Positions 33,765 to 39,619 of a DNA stretch of 64,000 nucleotides are shown here, piece after piece (position 1 is the stretch's first letter; every line of letters starts with the position of its first letter). Source of the DNA: Tricholoma matsutake (lineage: Eukaryota; Basidiomycota; Agaricomycetes; Agaricales; Tricholomataceae); NCBI GenBank assembly GCA_026075535.2, contig AP026544.2:8246001-8310000 (forward strand), read 5' to 3'. The translations under genes and the position numbers were made by a program. Under the pieces are notes generated by a model. The model was given only the letters and a program-made list of their open reading frames with translations, had not been told where the DNA came from and did no database searches.

Positions 33765-35367
33765 TTACTTGAACTGCGAAAACATCTAACGTTAGCTCAG
33801 GGATCGCAAGAAAATACGACAAGACATACCGCCTTCCCATCCACCCACTTCTTCCCGTCGATCTCCAGATCCCACGCAAGCGCAGCTTCGAAGAATGCTT
33901 TCTGCTCTGCATTCTCGAGGTCGAGTTTCGTGAAGGAATATGACTCCCAATCTGGTGCAACCTGAACAACGGGTACGACGTCCGGCCCACGCGCAATGAA
34001 GACACCCGCAATCCTCGAGTCATTCGCTTGGCCGAGCACACCGACGGAACCGAAGCCATACTTCCTAGACGCTTCCAGGCGGTTAAACAGTCCTGCAATC
34101 TGGTTGGATGACATGTACGTCTGCGTGAGCTCCTCGTTGTACTTGAAATCCACACGCCAGACGGAGAATCCTTCTTTGTCGAACCTGCAATAACATTAGT
34201 CAATGCCATCCAACACCATACGTATCTTCATACCGCTCGTAAAACCATTCTATAGCACCTCCCGATCCACGTGTGTCCATGTTAGAATATGCCCGCTTCC
34301 AGTCTTCGAGGTTAAACGATGACTTTGGGAGATCATCAAGAGGGTTCTTGGCTGGTGGAGGAGCAGCAGGCTCGTCTTCCTCATCGTCCTCTTCAGCCTT
34401 CTTCGCAGGCTTTTTCTCTGCTTTGGGGGGAGCAGCGGGTTTGGGCTCCTTTTTTTCTTTGGCGGGCGGCACGTATTGCAGGGCTTTCTCGACGTACTGG
34501 ATGGGATCGAAGATACCTTTGAATTTGGGTTGGTTGACGACGGTCTCCAGATGACGGGTGAGATGAGGAAGTTGTGCTCGCAAGGGCGCATCGATGGTTA
34601 TGGTGACAGCCCGCGCGATGAATACGCCCACAACGATATCGGCCAGAGTTAGACGTTCGCCCACGAAGAAAGTACGCGTAGCGAGATGAGCATCGAGGGT
34701 CTTCAGTGCTCGTAGCTGGCGTTCGGCAAATGTCGTATGGATCTGGAGACGGATGCATCAAGTATTAATATAAGGAATGATGAAGTGGACTTCAGACCAC
34801 ATACGGGCTTGTTGTACGGAGTGATATAACCACGGATAAGCTGGAATATCAAAGAAGTGTATGTATTGACTTCTGTATCTACGAGATGAATCCATTGATC
34901 GACCAGAGCAGCATCTTTCGCATCGGCACCGAAAAGTCCAGAATTGGGCGCAAGGTGAGCGACTGTTTGGAAAAAATTCAGTCCAAGTCCAGCAATTGAA
35001 GTGGTCGAACATTAATTGAGAACAGCAGTAAGAAAAGCACGAATGGCCTCGAGACTAGCAATCAAGATCGATAAGATGGACGATAAAACTTACTGTATCG
35101 AGCAATGGCAACACCCTCGACGACTTTGAAGCCATCACTGCCTTCAAAAGCAGGAATCTTTCCATGGGGGAATTTTGACAAGAACTCAGGTTTCTTGTTA
35201 TCTACCTGATGTTCATACGCAGTTGGTAGGTCAATCGACACCCCACCCCATGCGGCAGTTGCTCGAACCTAAAGAGCAATTCAGTGGGAACAACGAAGAA
35301 CTAACAGTAGACGAACGAGTTTTCCCAATTCTTGCCCGTGAAGGGTCCAGAGAGTACCAGCAGACAT
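33765..35367 (-). CDS. Translation elongation factor eEF1B gamma, copy 1
   Basis: Exon 1 (35367-35317) encodes MSAGTLWTLHGQELGKL; a 48-nt intron (35316-35269) follows. The GST-like N-terminal domain continues with VRATAAWGGVSIDLPTAYEH, FPHGKIPAFEGSDGF, APNSGLFGADAKDAALVDQW and FFVGERLTLADIVVG. A charged Lys/Glu/Pro linker (KKPAKKAEEDDEEDEP) leads to the EF1G domain: LDDLPKSSFNLEDWKRAYSN, GGAIEWFYERY, FDKEGFSVWRVDFKYNEELT, NRLEASRKYGFGSVGVLG and WESYSFTKLDLEN. The last exon holds only Phe-Lys-stop (33765-33770) after an intron with CGCAG acceptor. The subunit anchors the eEF1B nucleotide-exchange complex that recharges eEF1A. No break seen. It is one of two tandem same-strand copies. Confidence 0.93.
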
Positions 35368-37091
35368 TGTGTGCAAAATATGAGTCAGTGATGGAAGGAA
35401 GAGAGTGGCAAAATTTTTGACACCACGACGATCGATCACGTGATAGATAAATCTTATCATCGTGATCGATAAAAAGATTGTCCGATGATCGATTGGACAT
35501 GCATATGTGCATGAGGAGGGTCCGACGCGGCAGACCTGGTTCACAACAAGAGTCATTTTTCAGGATTTGTATTAATTTACAACACTAGTTTAGCTGAGCG
35601 AGCATAGTACAACAAAGTCACTTACTACCTGCCTGTTTACCCACTCCTTCGCAAGTAAGGTCCATGTTCTCGAGATGTGATCACGAGAGGGAGCAGCAGG
35701 CTCATGGTCGTCATCATCCTCAGCAACTGGTTTCACAGCTTTCTTCTTCAATGCACGACATAACATTCCAGCGCTTTTCCACGCACACGTGCACGGTGAA
35801 GACCTCCATGAACTCGGACTGCAATCTCGATAGAGAACGAGCTTTGCGACGCGGAAGTGTCAAGGATATGCGTTTGGATGACAACGATCTAGCGGGAAAA
35901 GGTGTGCGGAAGAAGCTGGCGGTCAGCGAGGCCATGCGTATGTGAAACATCATTTGAAAGATGAAGATCGATGAAGCTTGGCTGTGGCTTACGGGTTTGT
36001 TGTTAGGGGTGAACTGTCAAAGAGCAGCTGAACAATCAAAAGTCACCGATTTCTGAATCGCTTGGAGGAATCGGTATATCAACAAAAGCGGCATGTTTCG
36101 AGCATCGTGCAGTGCAGTGCAGAAGTGCAGCCGTAATCCATCATACAAACGGCTAGAAACTCGGGTGAGATGCCAGCCCGATCAGAGCTCAGACCAATCC
36201 ATATATCATAAGCATGTATTGGCAATGACCAACACAACCTGTGAAGGTGATAAGACCAGTAGAGCTTTTAGAAATATGTTAATTGCTGTATTTGATCAAC
36301 CTATTGGCTCATAGTACGACTTAAAAGGACCAATATACAAGACTTACACTCTTTGCAATTGATTGCTTAACTGTAACCGAATCGTCAATGCAGAAAGTGA
36401 TGCCCAACAAAGCGCTTACCTGTCCAAGAAAGCATCCGGTGACAAGGAACGTGCATCTGAGTGAAGGGCGGCATTTGCCACGTGTCGAGGATTATTCTGA
36501 GGCCAGGAGGTGATGGCCGTTACCATCGAAAGAAAAGATGACTTAAAAAATCATGTGTTAGTCTGTGATACGAGGGTCGCCACTGAAAAGCCCCTAGAAG
36601 TAACCCAGCAACTGCCGGTAAAACAGTTAGCATGCGTCAGTCTTTGGAGAGGTAGAGATAACTTGTTCCCTCTCGAAGAACACAAAACGATGAAGTCTTT
36701 CGCAACGCAGGCATCGTCCATGGTAATCCCTGCGTGAACATTTTTTGTCCAATCGACGCGCCTCCTCAAGCTGCATCTACCACAAATGGCACTTCAGAGC
36801 CCAGCCTGTATAGTCGCGAATAGCGTTAGTAAGGTACAACGATCCGAGCACATCAGGATTCATGATATAAGAGAGCTGTAACCAAGCAAGTATGAGTAAA
36901 GAAATATAACAGCGTAAAGTAGCAACATACCAAAAACTATTACATTTTCTTAACTGTGTAAAAACCTACAAGACTTTCAATTAACCAAATCCTCCAGGGA
37001 TGGAACAGTACTTACTATCCCTTCCTATCTACAATTACTCACCACCACGGTCATTAGCTGAGAAGGTTGTGAAGACTATCTCCACTAGCTT
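35368..37091. other. Spacer between the two eEF1B-gamma copies
   Basis: Mostly non-coding. A minus-strand patch at about 35760-35690 reads KKKAVKPVAEDDDDHEPAAPS, similar to the linker of both flanking eEF1B-gamma genes (KKAEEDDEEDEPAAP), and may be the only readable trace of a third, largely erased copy. The rest holds no supported feature. Confidence 0.35.
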
Positions 37092-38670
37092 CTATTTGAA
37101 CTGCAAAAAGACATATGTTAACTCAGGGACTGACAGAAGCACAGCAAGACATACCGCCTTCCCATCCACCCATTTCTTCCCATCAATGACCAGGTCCCAA
37201 GCAAGCGCAGCCTCAAAAAATGCCTTCTGCTCCCCATCATCAAGGTCAAGCTTCGTAAACGAATACGATTCCCAATCCGGGGCAACCTGCACAACGGGCA
37301 TGATGGCCTGCCCACGCACAATGAAGACACCCGCTATCCTCGAGTCGTTCGCTTCGCCGAGCACACCGACGGAACCGAAGCCATACTTTCTGGACGCCTC
37401 CAGGCGGTTAAACAGTCCTGCAATCTGGTTGGATGACCTGTACGTCTGCGTGAGTTCCTCGTTGTACTTGAAATCCACACGCCAGATGGAGAATCCTTCT
37501 TTGTCGAATCTGCAACAACACGTCAGTCAATGTCTTCCAACACCATACGTATCTACATACCGCTCATAAAACCATTCTATAGCGCCTCCAGGTCCACGAG
37601 TATCCATGTTAGAATACGCCCGCTTCCAGTCCTCGAGGTTTAAAGATGACTTTGGGAGGTCATCGAGAGGATTATGGACCTTGGGCTGTGGCGGCACCGC
37701 AGGCTGGTCCTCGTCCTCGTCCTCAACAGCTTTCGCCGGCTTCTTCGTCGGCCTTGGAGGTACAGGAGGCTTTGCCTTTTCTTTTTCTTTTTCTTTCTTC
37801 GGCGGCACATAGGGGAGCGCTCTCTCGATGTACGGCAGGGGCTGGAATATGTCCTTGAATTGGGGTTGGTTGATCACTGTCTCGAGGTGACGGATGAGAT
37901 GAGGGTGCTGTGCACGTAGTGGGGCGTCGATCGTGATCGTAGCAGCTCGTTGTATGTAAGTCGCGACGACAAGGTCCGCAAGGGTTATACGCTCCCCAAC
38001 GAAGAAGGTCCGTGTGGACAGGTGTGTATCAAGAGTCTTGAGTGCTTTAAGTTGGTTCGCGGCAAGAGTAGTATGGACCTAGAAAAAAAGTTCCGATTGA
38101 AAAAGGAACATAGCAAGCAGAAAAGTTGAGAAATACAGGTTTATTGTATGGCGTCATTTTCCCAATCAGCATGAATCTGATAATATTGTTCGGTAAAGCG
38201 ACCTCTGTCTCTACAAGATGGATCCATTGGTCAACGAGGGCTGCATCCTCAAGACTATGCCCGAGGAGACCGGAGTTTGGAGCCAGCCCTGCAACTATTG
38301 AAAAATCAGTCCAATTCTTAAACCACACAAAAGCCCACAAGTACGTGTGCCTTCATATCGTCGAAATGGGGGAAACGCTTACCATATCGAGCAATAGGCA
38401 CGCCCTCGAAGAGCTGAAACCCATCTTTGCTTTCAAAGGCCGGAATCTGGCCGTGCGGAAATTTTGACAAATACTCAGACTTCTTGTTATCGACATAATG
38501 CTCATATGAATCTGGCTGGTCAAATGATAACCCTGCCCATGCAGCAGCGGCAAGTATCTATGTGAGACAAATACGGTCACAAACAAGAAAGACCAAAAAC
38601 ACAAGTCTGTACTCACAAACTTCCCTCTCTGTTGCGTAGGCGTATTCCAGAGCGTACCAATCACGGGCAT
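37092..38670 (-). CDS. Translation elongation factor eEF1B gamma, copy 2 (snoRNA host)
   Basis: Starts MPVIGTLWNTPTQQRGKF (38670), intron GTGAGT...CACATAG, then ILAAAAWAGLSFDQPDSYEH and FPHGQIPAFESKDGFQLFEG (GST-like domain), LEDAALVDQWIHLVETE, FFVGERITLADLVVA, a Lys/Pro linker and the EF1G domain nearly identical to copy 1 (DLPKSSLNLEDWKRAYSN; NRLEASRKYGFGSVGVLG). The last exon is Phe-Lys-TAG (37092-37100), spliced exactly as in copy 1. The N-terminal third differs clearly between the copies while the C-terminal domain is conserved. Upstream, non-coding exons predicted at 38953-39122 and 39293-39353 are separated by three introns that each contain a snR38-like sequence, so this copy likely doubles as a snoRNA host gene. 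Confidence 0.92.
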
Positions 38671-38837
38671 TAGCTCTAGGCGTTGTTCGAGATGGTGGTC
38701 GGGAGGAAACACGGGGTTGTCCTACCGAAATTCCAAGTATAGATTTGGTCCGTGACTCGTTACATAAACTTGGTGGTTACAAACTATATCGCTCCGTCTA
38801 AGAACGATAAATCAGAATAGTGAGAACGGAAATAATG

Positions 38838-38906
38838 GGATCAGATTTTCAAGATCTCGACATAATTGGTAAGACAGGGATAACTGAAAAGTTGTATTCT
38901 CATCTC
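38838..38906 (-). ncRNA. snR38: snR38-like C/D-box snoRNA, copy 1
   Basis: Minus strand: C-box-like ATGAGAA (38903-38897; 5 of 7 to the consensus), antisense CAGTTATCCCTGT (38886-38874) followed by a D'-like CTTA, then D box CTGA (38844-38841). The 13-nt antisense pairs with the universally conserved ACAGGGATAACTG of large-subunit rRNA. By the fifth-nucleotide rule, counting from CTTA, the target is a G in that GGG, agreeing with snR38 guiding Gm2815 in yeast 25S rRNA. Lies in a predicted 155-nt intron (38952-38798). Confidence 0.65.
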
Positions 38907-39176
38907 GAAGTGGATACATTCTCAATCAAGAAAGCGCAAAAATGATACGTACAGATGTCACAGAGAGGGTATATCCACTTCGAGGGAATTCTTGAAGTTC
39001 AGCGCCAGCATATTGGGCGCAACTCCCACACGATGACAGATCAATGTGCATCATAGTCGACCAAGGAAGACTGAAGTTGATACACTTCATCAAGGTTCGT
39101 TACTTTCCGATCAAGTATTCACCTGGATGGCAATACGTCAGAATAACCCAAATGATGAGCATCCGACAGAAAAGGA

Positions 39177-39247
39177 GTATCAGATTTTCAAGGTCTCGAC
39201 ATAATCGTTAAGACAGGGATAACTGAAAATTGTATAATTCTCATCTC
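39177..39247 (-). ncRNA. snR38: snR38-like C/D-box snoRNA, copy 2
   Basis: Same layout as copy 1: C-like box 39244-39238, antisense 39225-39213, D box 39183-39180. The antisense is identical to the other copies while flanking bases differ. Lies in a predicted 170-nt intron (39292-39123) with GTCAGT donor and CATCCAG acceptor. Confidence 0.65.
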
Positions 39248-39408
39248 GCCGATGGGCGGTCTGTCCCGTCTAAATAACAAGGTTACACTGACCTAAGATG
39301 CGCTGCTTTGACAATTGTCTGTTCATGGTGTCCTTGGCCTGTATCATACGCATCTAGAGAGAATGGGCGTCAGTACATCAGAAATACTTTATCGAACACG
39401 AGATGTAT

Positions 39409-39487
39409 AGATCAGCTTTTCAGTCTCGACATAATCATTAAGACAGGGATAACTGAAAATTGTATGATTCTCATCTTCTCATTGTGG
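39409..39487 (-). ncRNA. snR38: snR38-like C/D-box snoRNA, copy 3
   Basis: C-like box 39484-39478, antisense 39465-39453, D box 39415-39412. The segment between D'-like box and D box is 5-6 nt shorter than in copies 1 and 2. Lies in a predicted 171-nt intron (39524-39354) with GTGAGT donor and CTCTCTAG acceptor. Confidence 0.65.
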
Positions 39488-39619
39488 CATAGCAATGGAA
39501 TAATGGGTACAAAATATGACTCACACAGCATAAGACCCAGTTCAACGCGTGGACAGCAAAGACTAAAGAGTTACGAGGCAAGCAAATTTCAAATTTTAAT
39601 TTGAAAAACGAGTTTAGGG

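Follow-up and report, generated by a model that had tools for sequence, protein, structure and literature searches.

RESULTS

Three snR38-type sequences upstream of an eEF1B-gamma gene

In Tricholoma matsutake, three closely similar sequences on the minus strand precede an intact gene for eEF1B gamma (gene A), and, judging from their sequence, we consider them with a probability of about 0.75 to be paralogues of the snR38/snoR38 box C/D snoRNA, one in each intron of a spliced RNA transcribed toward gene A. The initial annotation of the 64-kb window (the whole stretch of DNA analyzed here, 64,000 nucleotides) had described three minus-strand C/D-type sequences with one common 13-nt antisense, and this is borne out, with lengths of 66 to 68 nt from C box to D box and exact guides. 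When up to one mismatch is allowed, a pattern search of the window for CAGTTATCCCTGT returns three matches, all exact and all on the minus strand (38874-38886, 39213-39225, and 39443-39455), against an expectation of 0.06 and with three matches in 0 of 100 shuffles. Copy 1 (39412..39477, minus strand, 66 nt) has its guide at 39455-39443, its D′ box at 39442-39439, and its D box at 39415-39412; the corresponding positions are 39225-39213, 39212-39209, and 39183-39180 in copy 2 (39180..39247, minus strand, 68 nt) and 38886-38874, 38873-38870, and 38844-38841 in copy 3 (38841..38906, minus strand, 66 nt). Each unit consists, in order, of a C box, the guide, a D′ box CTTA directly after the guide, a C′-like stretch ATTATGTCGAGA, and a D box CTGA, and from the guide to the C′-like stretch, as well as in the D box, the elements show no difference among the three copies. 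Pairwise identities are 0.91, 0.88, and 0.91, each a level matched by 0 of 300 shuffles. Copies 1 and 3 each have two bases fewer than copy 2, and copy 1 differs in the stretch before the D box, where a second guide would sit.

Across 4,227 Rfam families, RF00213 (snoR38) is the top family for all three copies, scoring 36.8 bits for copy 1 (E = 4.2e-4), 37.1 bits for copy 2 (E = 3.6e-4), and 36.0 bits for copy 3 (E = 6.6e-4; E values for 1.1 kb), followed by Afu_328, ceN61, and TtnuCD17, which are likewise C/D families and carry a similar antisense. The covariance check suggested for snR38 thus has a divided outcome, since the expected family ranks first with E values from 3.6e-4 to 6.6e-4, but all three scores fall below its gathering score of 45 bits, which is a detection cut-off and not a biological feature; no Rfam family reaches its gathering score anywhere in the 64-kb window. 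The low scores weigh against the snR38 assignment, as do the imperfect C boxes (AAGATGA, GAGATGA, and GAGATGA in copies 1, 2, and 3, each with one mismatch to RUGAUGA) and the presence of CTTA instead of CUGA as the D′ box.

Predicted target in 25S rRNA and uniqueness in the genome

All 13 nt of the guide pair, in each of the three copies, with the 25S rRNA block ACAGGGATAACTG; counting back from D′, the fifth base lies opposite the G that corresponds to yeast G2815 (the second one in GGG). That yeast snR38 acts on this same 25S segment is confirmed by a source that places its target nucleotide 2815 in the ACAGGGATAACTG block (PMC8527467), and a published table has snR38 of yeast, human, and plant under RF00213, with the yeast site numbered Gm2812 (PMC3511168). 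With up to one mismatch, ACAGGGATAACTGGCTTGT occurs at one place in the assembly (L012; G000:C1:17847809-17850827), the surroundings of which look, beside a 25S sequence, like a degenerate piece of rDNA, so that working rDNA seems to be absent from the sequence searched. No working 25S gene was found in that assembly, where the target block is present at this one place only, and this weighs against our explanation.

In an RF00213 search across the 161-Mb genome, which scored 62 of the 24,691 candidates from a first look, the three copies are the three best of four matches in all (E = 0.013 to 0.023), the next one reaching 24.8 bits (E = 8.4). A DNA search of the whole genome gave no matches beyond the three copies, and a 17-base pattern with up to one mismatch recovered these three only (its reversed control had one match). 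In the 30-45 kb part of the window, a search with a sequence model derived from all three copies detected nothing further better than E = 0.71. At this search depth, the three copies are the genome's sole snR38 locus.

Predicted introns and a hairpin at copy 3

The three predicted leader introns, all on the minus strand, are intron 1 (39354..39524, 171 nt, GTGAGT..CTCTAG), intron 2 (39123..39292, 170 nt, GTCAGT..ATCCAG), and intron 3 (38798..38952, 155 nt, GTACGT..TCTTAG). Splice sites giving introns of 155-171 nt, as originally proposed, are plausible in view of the GT..AG ends and of the joint splice signal, the sum of the six best sites being matched by 4 of 1,000 shuffles (P = 0.004; the weights come from ten coding introns, of which one, the first of gene B, has a misplaced border). 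A CTGAC, CTGAC, or CTGAT motif is found 16, 15, and 14 nt upstream of the 3′ end of introns 1, 2, and 3, respectively. Between D box and 3′ splice site lie 58, 57, and 43 nt, and between 5′ splice site and C box 47, 45, and 46 nt, the latter values being inside the range of 41-60 nt given as the main one for intronic snoRNAs of Neurospora (PMC2780460). Taken singly, the sites have P values of 0.34, 0.08, and 0.50 (5′) and 0.14, 0.07, and 0.14 (3′) for introns 1 to 3, and two of the six best-scoring sites are unlike those proposed, namely, for copy 2 a 5′ site that precedes the C box by 102 nt and for copy 3 a 3′ site that follows the D box by 57 nt, which weighs against our explanation. We regard the snoRNA introns as likely real and their exact borders as predictions, none of them certain singly. 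Not all of the coding introns are about 50 nt long, as had been stated; those of gene A measure 51-88 nt and those of gene B 48-131 nt.

A hairpin with 15 contiguous pairs plus more extends from exon 3 into intron 3 (38904..38984, minus strand; z = −5.05, with 0 of 200 shuffles as stable; z = −4.65 in a second test). Its base falls within the copy 3 C box and its loop holds the predicted 5′ splice site, and stretches of like size before copies 1 and 2 have no such hairpin (z = 1.56 and −0.37). According to work cited in PMC13183374, Nop1 affects how Rnt1 cleaves snR18 and snR38 in yeast, which makes an RNase III entry site at copy 3 a fair guess at best.

Two tandem eEF1B-gamma genes

Gene A (37092..38670, minus strand) encodes 422 aa, has five coding introns, and is intact (Pfam EF1G, 141 bits). 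It is followed on the same strand by a tandem paralogue, gene B (33765..35367, minus strand), which lies outside the snoRNA unit and whose 418-aa product is identical over its full length to P0001, an annotated T. matsutake protein. An eEF1B-gamma gene thus does stand beside the snoRNAs, as claimed, with its open reading frame (ORF) downstream and on the same strand, but it is one of two, and the diverged one. Although A was the query, 110 of the 120 relatives listed score higher with B than with A (B itself, as P0001, among the 110), and the best match to A among 7,997 scored candidates of this protein search is B, at 71%, so that the search did not recover the protein of A itself from the collection. 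Ten other fungi share 158 invariant columns, of which 11 are altered in A and 7 in B. The two genes pair in a full-length tree (100/99), with a branch of 0.45 for A versus 0.15 for B; the pairing is absent from an N-terminal tree, yet it is not rejected there (p-AU = 0.414). Overall dN/dS between A and B is 0.116. Saturation of synonymous sites is seen for residues 1-225, unlike residues 263-355 (dS = 0.325), a region that includes intron 4, which is 86% identical. In this region and its intron the two genes resemble each other much more closely than elsewhere, which suggests that gene conversion has acted on an old pair.

Upstream of gene B, a comparison with the snoRNAs revealed no snR38 remnants, local scores being within those of shuffles (P = 0.19, 0.46, and 0.63), and the three-copy sequence model found no snR38 near B in the 30-45 kb covered. 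The best match between the upstream regions of A and B is 20 nt at 85% and, with E = 0.28, may be due to chance. It links, on the minus strand and with 17 of 20 positions alike, the 5′ end of predicted intron 1 (39504-39523) and the stretch just before the B ATG (35368-35387). Between the two genes, the minus strand at about 35660-35760 resembles by eye an eEF1B-gamma acidic linker and is perhaps a remnant of a third copy. Two eEF1B-gamma proteins each are also present in Hypsizygus marmoreus (P0002 and P0010), Termitomyces sp. T159_Od127 (P0016 and P0091), and Mycena sanguinolenta (P0059 and P0063); as the longest contigs of both members are equal in length in these three fungi, linked pairs may occur elsewhere.

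Two candidate promoter motifs were dropped. CCCTAAA (39619), like TTTAGGG, was present in 0 of 9 loci and AGTCACG (38757), searched as AGTCAC[AG], in 1 of 9, in the 800 nt before PF01248/PF00467 loci (9 of 10 loci, L022 being excluded because it and L021 are one gene; some of the loci may not be ribosomal protein genes).

DISCUSSION

Proposed mechanism and route of the tripling

The sequences, the boxes, the guide with its spacing to D′, the sole locus at the search depth used, and the intact downstream ORF are the observed ground on which we propose the following course of events. Splicing would free each snoRNA-bearing intron and may join the leader to the ORF; debranching and trimming of the freed intron would leave a C/D RNP, the common guide of which, before D′, would pair with 13 nt of 25S rRNA and direct 2′-O-methylation of the G equivalent to yeast G2815. 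The three copies would then raise the dose of a single guide and be kept by selection. In Fusarium, a putative intronic snR38 is described as dropping when the debranching enzyme is lost (PMC9606315).

The snoRNA intron had been taken to be triplicated in tandem. The likeness of the snoRNAs agrees with this, but their surroundings mostly lack such likeness, as five of six intron-flank comparisons (the exception being the 3′ side of copies 1 and 3, P = 0.027) and all four leader-exon pairs compared are at chance level. With snoRNAs that are 88-91% identical between flanks that mostly are not, the copies look old and selected. Either an ancient duplication involved whole introns, of which just the snoRNAs have been preserved, or the snoRNAs alone were copied, and both routes imply selection on all three copies. 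Copying of a snoRNA inside one host gene is a known route, termed "cis-duplication" (PMC2653536).

Alternative readings of the locus

It is improbable that one copy is active and the other two are dead duplicates: the imperfect C boxes, shared by all three, and the two bases missing from copies 1 and 3 relative to copy 2 would suit such decay, whereas the identity of guide, D′, C′-like stretch, and D across the copies, next to flanks mostly at chance level, speaks against it. The nature of the host transcript is a closer matter. Of the earlier claim that the snoRNA introns belong to the eEF1B-gamma 5′ UTR, the part that stands is the presence of plausible introns upstream on the same strand; membership in the mRNA has become doubtful, since leader exons 2 to 4 contain 8 upstream ATGs in 358 nt versus 8.2 in shuffles and thus show no sign of the depletion that one would expect in the leader if the mRNA were translated well. 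The snoRNAs could instead come from a separate noncoding RNA that ends before gene A, or only sometimes reads into it, with the A promoter in 38797-38671. SNHG16 and GAS5 are noncoding snoRNA hosts of this sort in animals. None of the upstream ATGs opens a frame running into the A ORF, which again fits a separate host, as does a run of 13 pyrimidines that stops 25 nt short of the B ATG (P = 0.012), together with a 9-nt run ending 30 nt before the A ATG that is not significant (P = 0.177); leader exon 1 has no pyrimidine run above shuffles. Noncoding hosts of fungal snoRNA clusters are, moreover, on record (PMC2780460, PMC3596301). On the other side, only 127 nt on the same strand separate the last predicted 3′ splice site from the A ATG, and the yeast host is the eEF1B-gamma gene itself. 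We therefore grant a separate host RNA a substantial chance, short of even odds, and consider it rather probable that a transcript joins the snoRNA introns to gene A, at least at times.

A similar balance applies to the origin of the host link. In yeast, the TEF4 intron houses snR38, as the initial annotation had it and as is borne out in print, and TEF5 houses snR18 (PMC3454408, PMC2705663). Comparing the two lineages, we lean toward a snR38/eEF1B-gamma link older than the ascomycete/basidiomycete split, because a double landing at the same gene family seems unlikely a priori, which is a judgement and not a computation. The same host might also be shared by chance, snR38 having arrived here independently of the yeast TEF4 arrangement, and to this we assign a considerable weight that falls somewhat below one half: the comparison spans two lineages with no intermediate, and in matsutake the predicted introns precede the ORF, whereas the yeast intron is inside the coding sequence. 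snoRNAs are also documented to move within genomes (PMC3511168, PMC8476143).

If the link is ancestral, as we favor, this snoRNA-host pair outlived the ascomycete/basidiomycete split, and it becomes directly testable what keeps certain snoRNAs with translation-factor hosts. The tandem eEF1B-gamma genes, A with snR38 upstream and B without a detected copy, form a natural contrast. Ancestral nesting may even have led, although this is speculative and on the unlikely side, to a division of labor parallel to TEF4/TEF3, with the tripled snR38 at a diverged A that serves mainly as an RNA host and with B taking over the protein duty; the hairpin at copy 3 could also be an RNase III entry for splicing-free release. 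The tripling suggests that guide dose was raised in matsutake as in mammals.

Comparison with known systems

The yeast TEF4/snR38 pair is like the matsutake locus in that a C/D snoRNA with the same antisense block and target is linked to an eEF1B-gamma gene and in that the gene so linked is one of two paralogues (in yeast the host TEF4, not TEF3). To our knowledge, yeast TEF3 is without snR38. Yeast differs in having one copy versus three here, and its TEF4 intron interrupts the coding sequence, unlike the matsutake introns, which lie upstream of the ORF. In humans, a single host bears three copies of the snR38 type in its introns, SNORD1A-C (snR38A-C); this host, SNHG16, is noncoding and, in contrast to the matsutake locus, involves no eEF1B gamma. 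The three human forms of the same guide, snR38a/b/c, appear in a published table (PMC2653536), and the derivation of SNORD1A-C from SNHG16 introns is stated in PMC7154078. Nc CD23 of Neurospora crassa is similar in being intronic, 72 nt long, and matched to snR38, with a D′ guide for 26S Gm2773, but it is given as a single entry (PMC2780460). The Rfam family RF02403 (Afu_328) has a similar antisense and is second best for copies 2 and 3, but the scores of 29.2, 24.2, and 19.3 bits stand against a gathering score of 70. A pattern search for relatives gave 46 matches in genome contigs and 74 in viral contigs, none of them confirmed, and yielded no DNA from a further basidiomycete. Titles and the beginnings of abstracts, not including the fungal snoRNAome paper PMC5824354, yielded no literature on snR38 hosts in basidiomycetes. 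The arrangement is of a known kind; its novelty lies in the instance, namely, three copies that stand, in a basidiomycete, beside one of two eEF1B-gamma genes.
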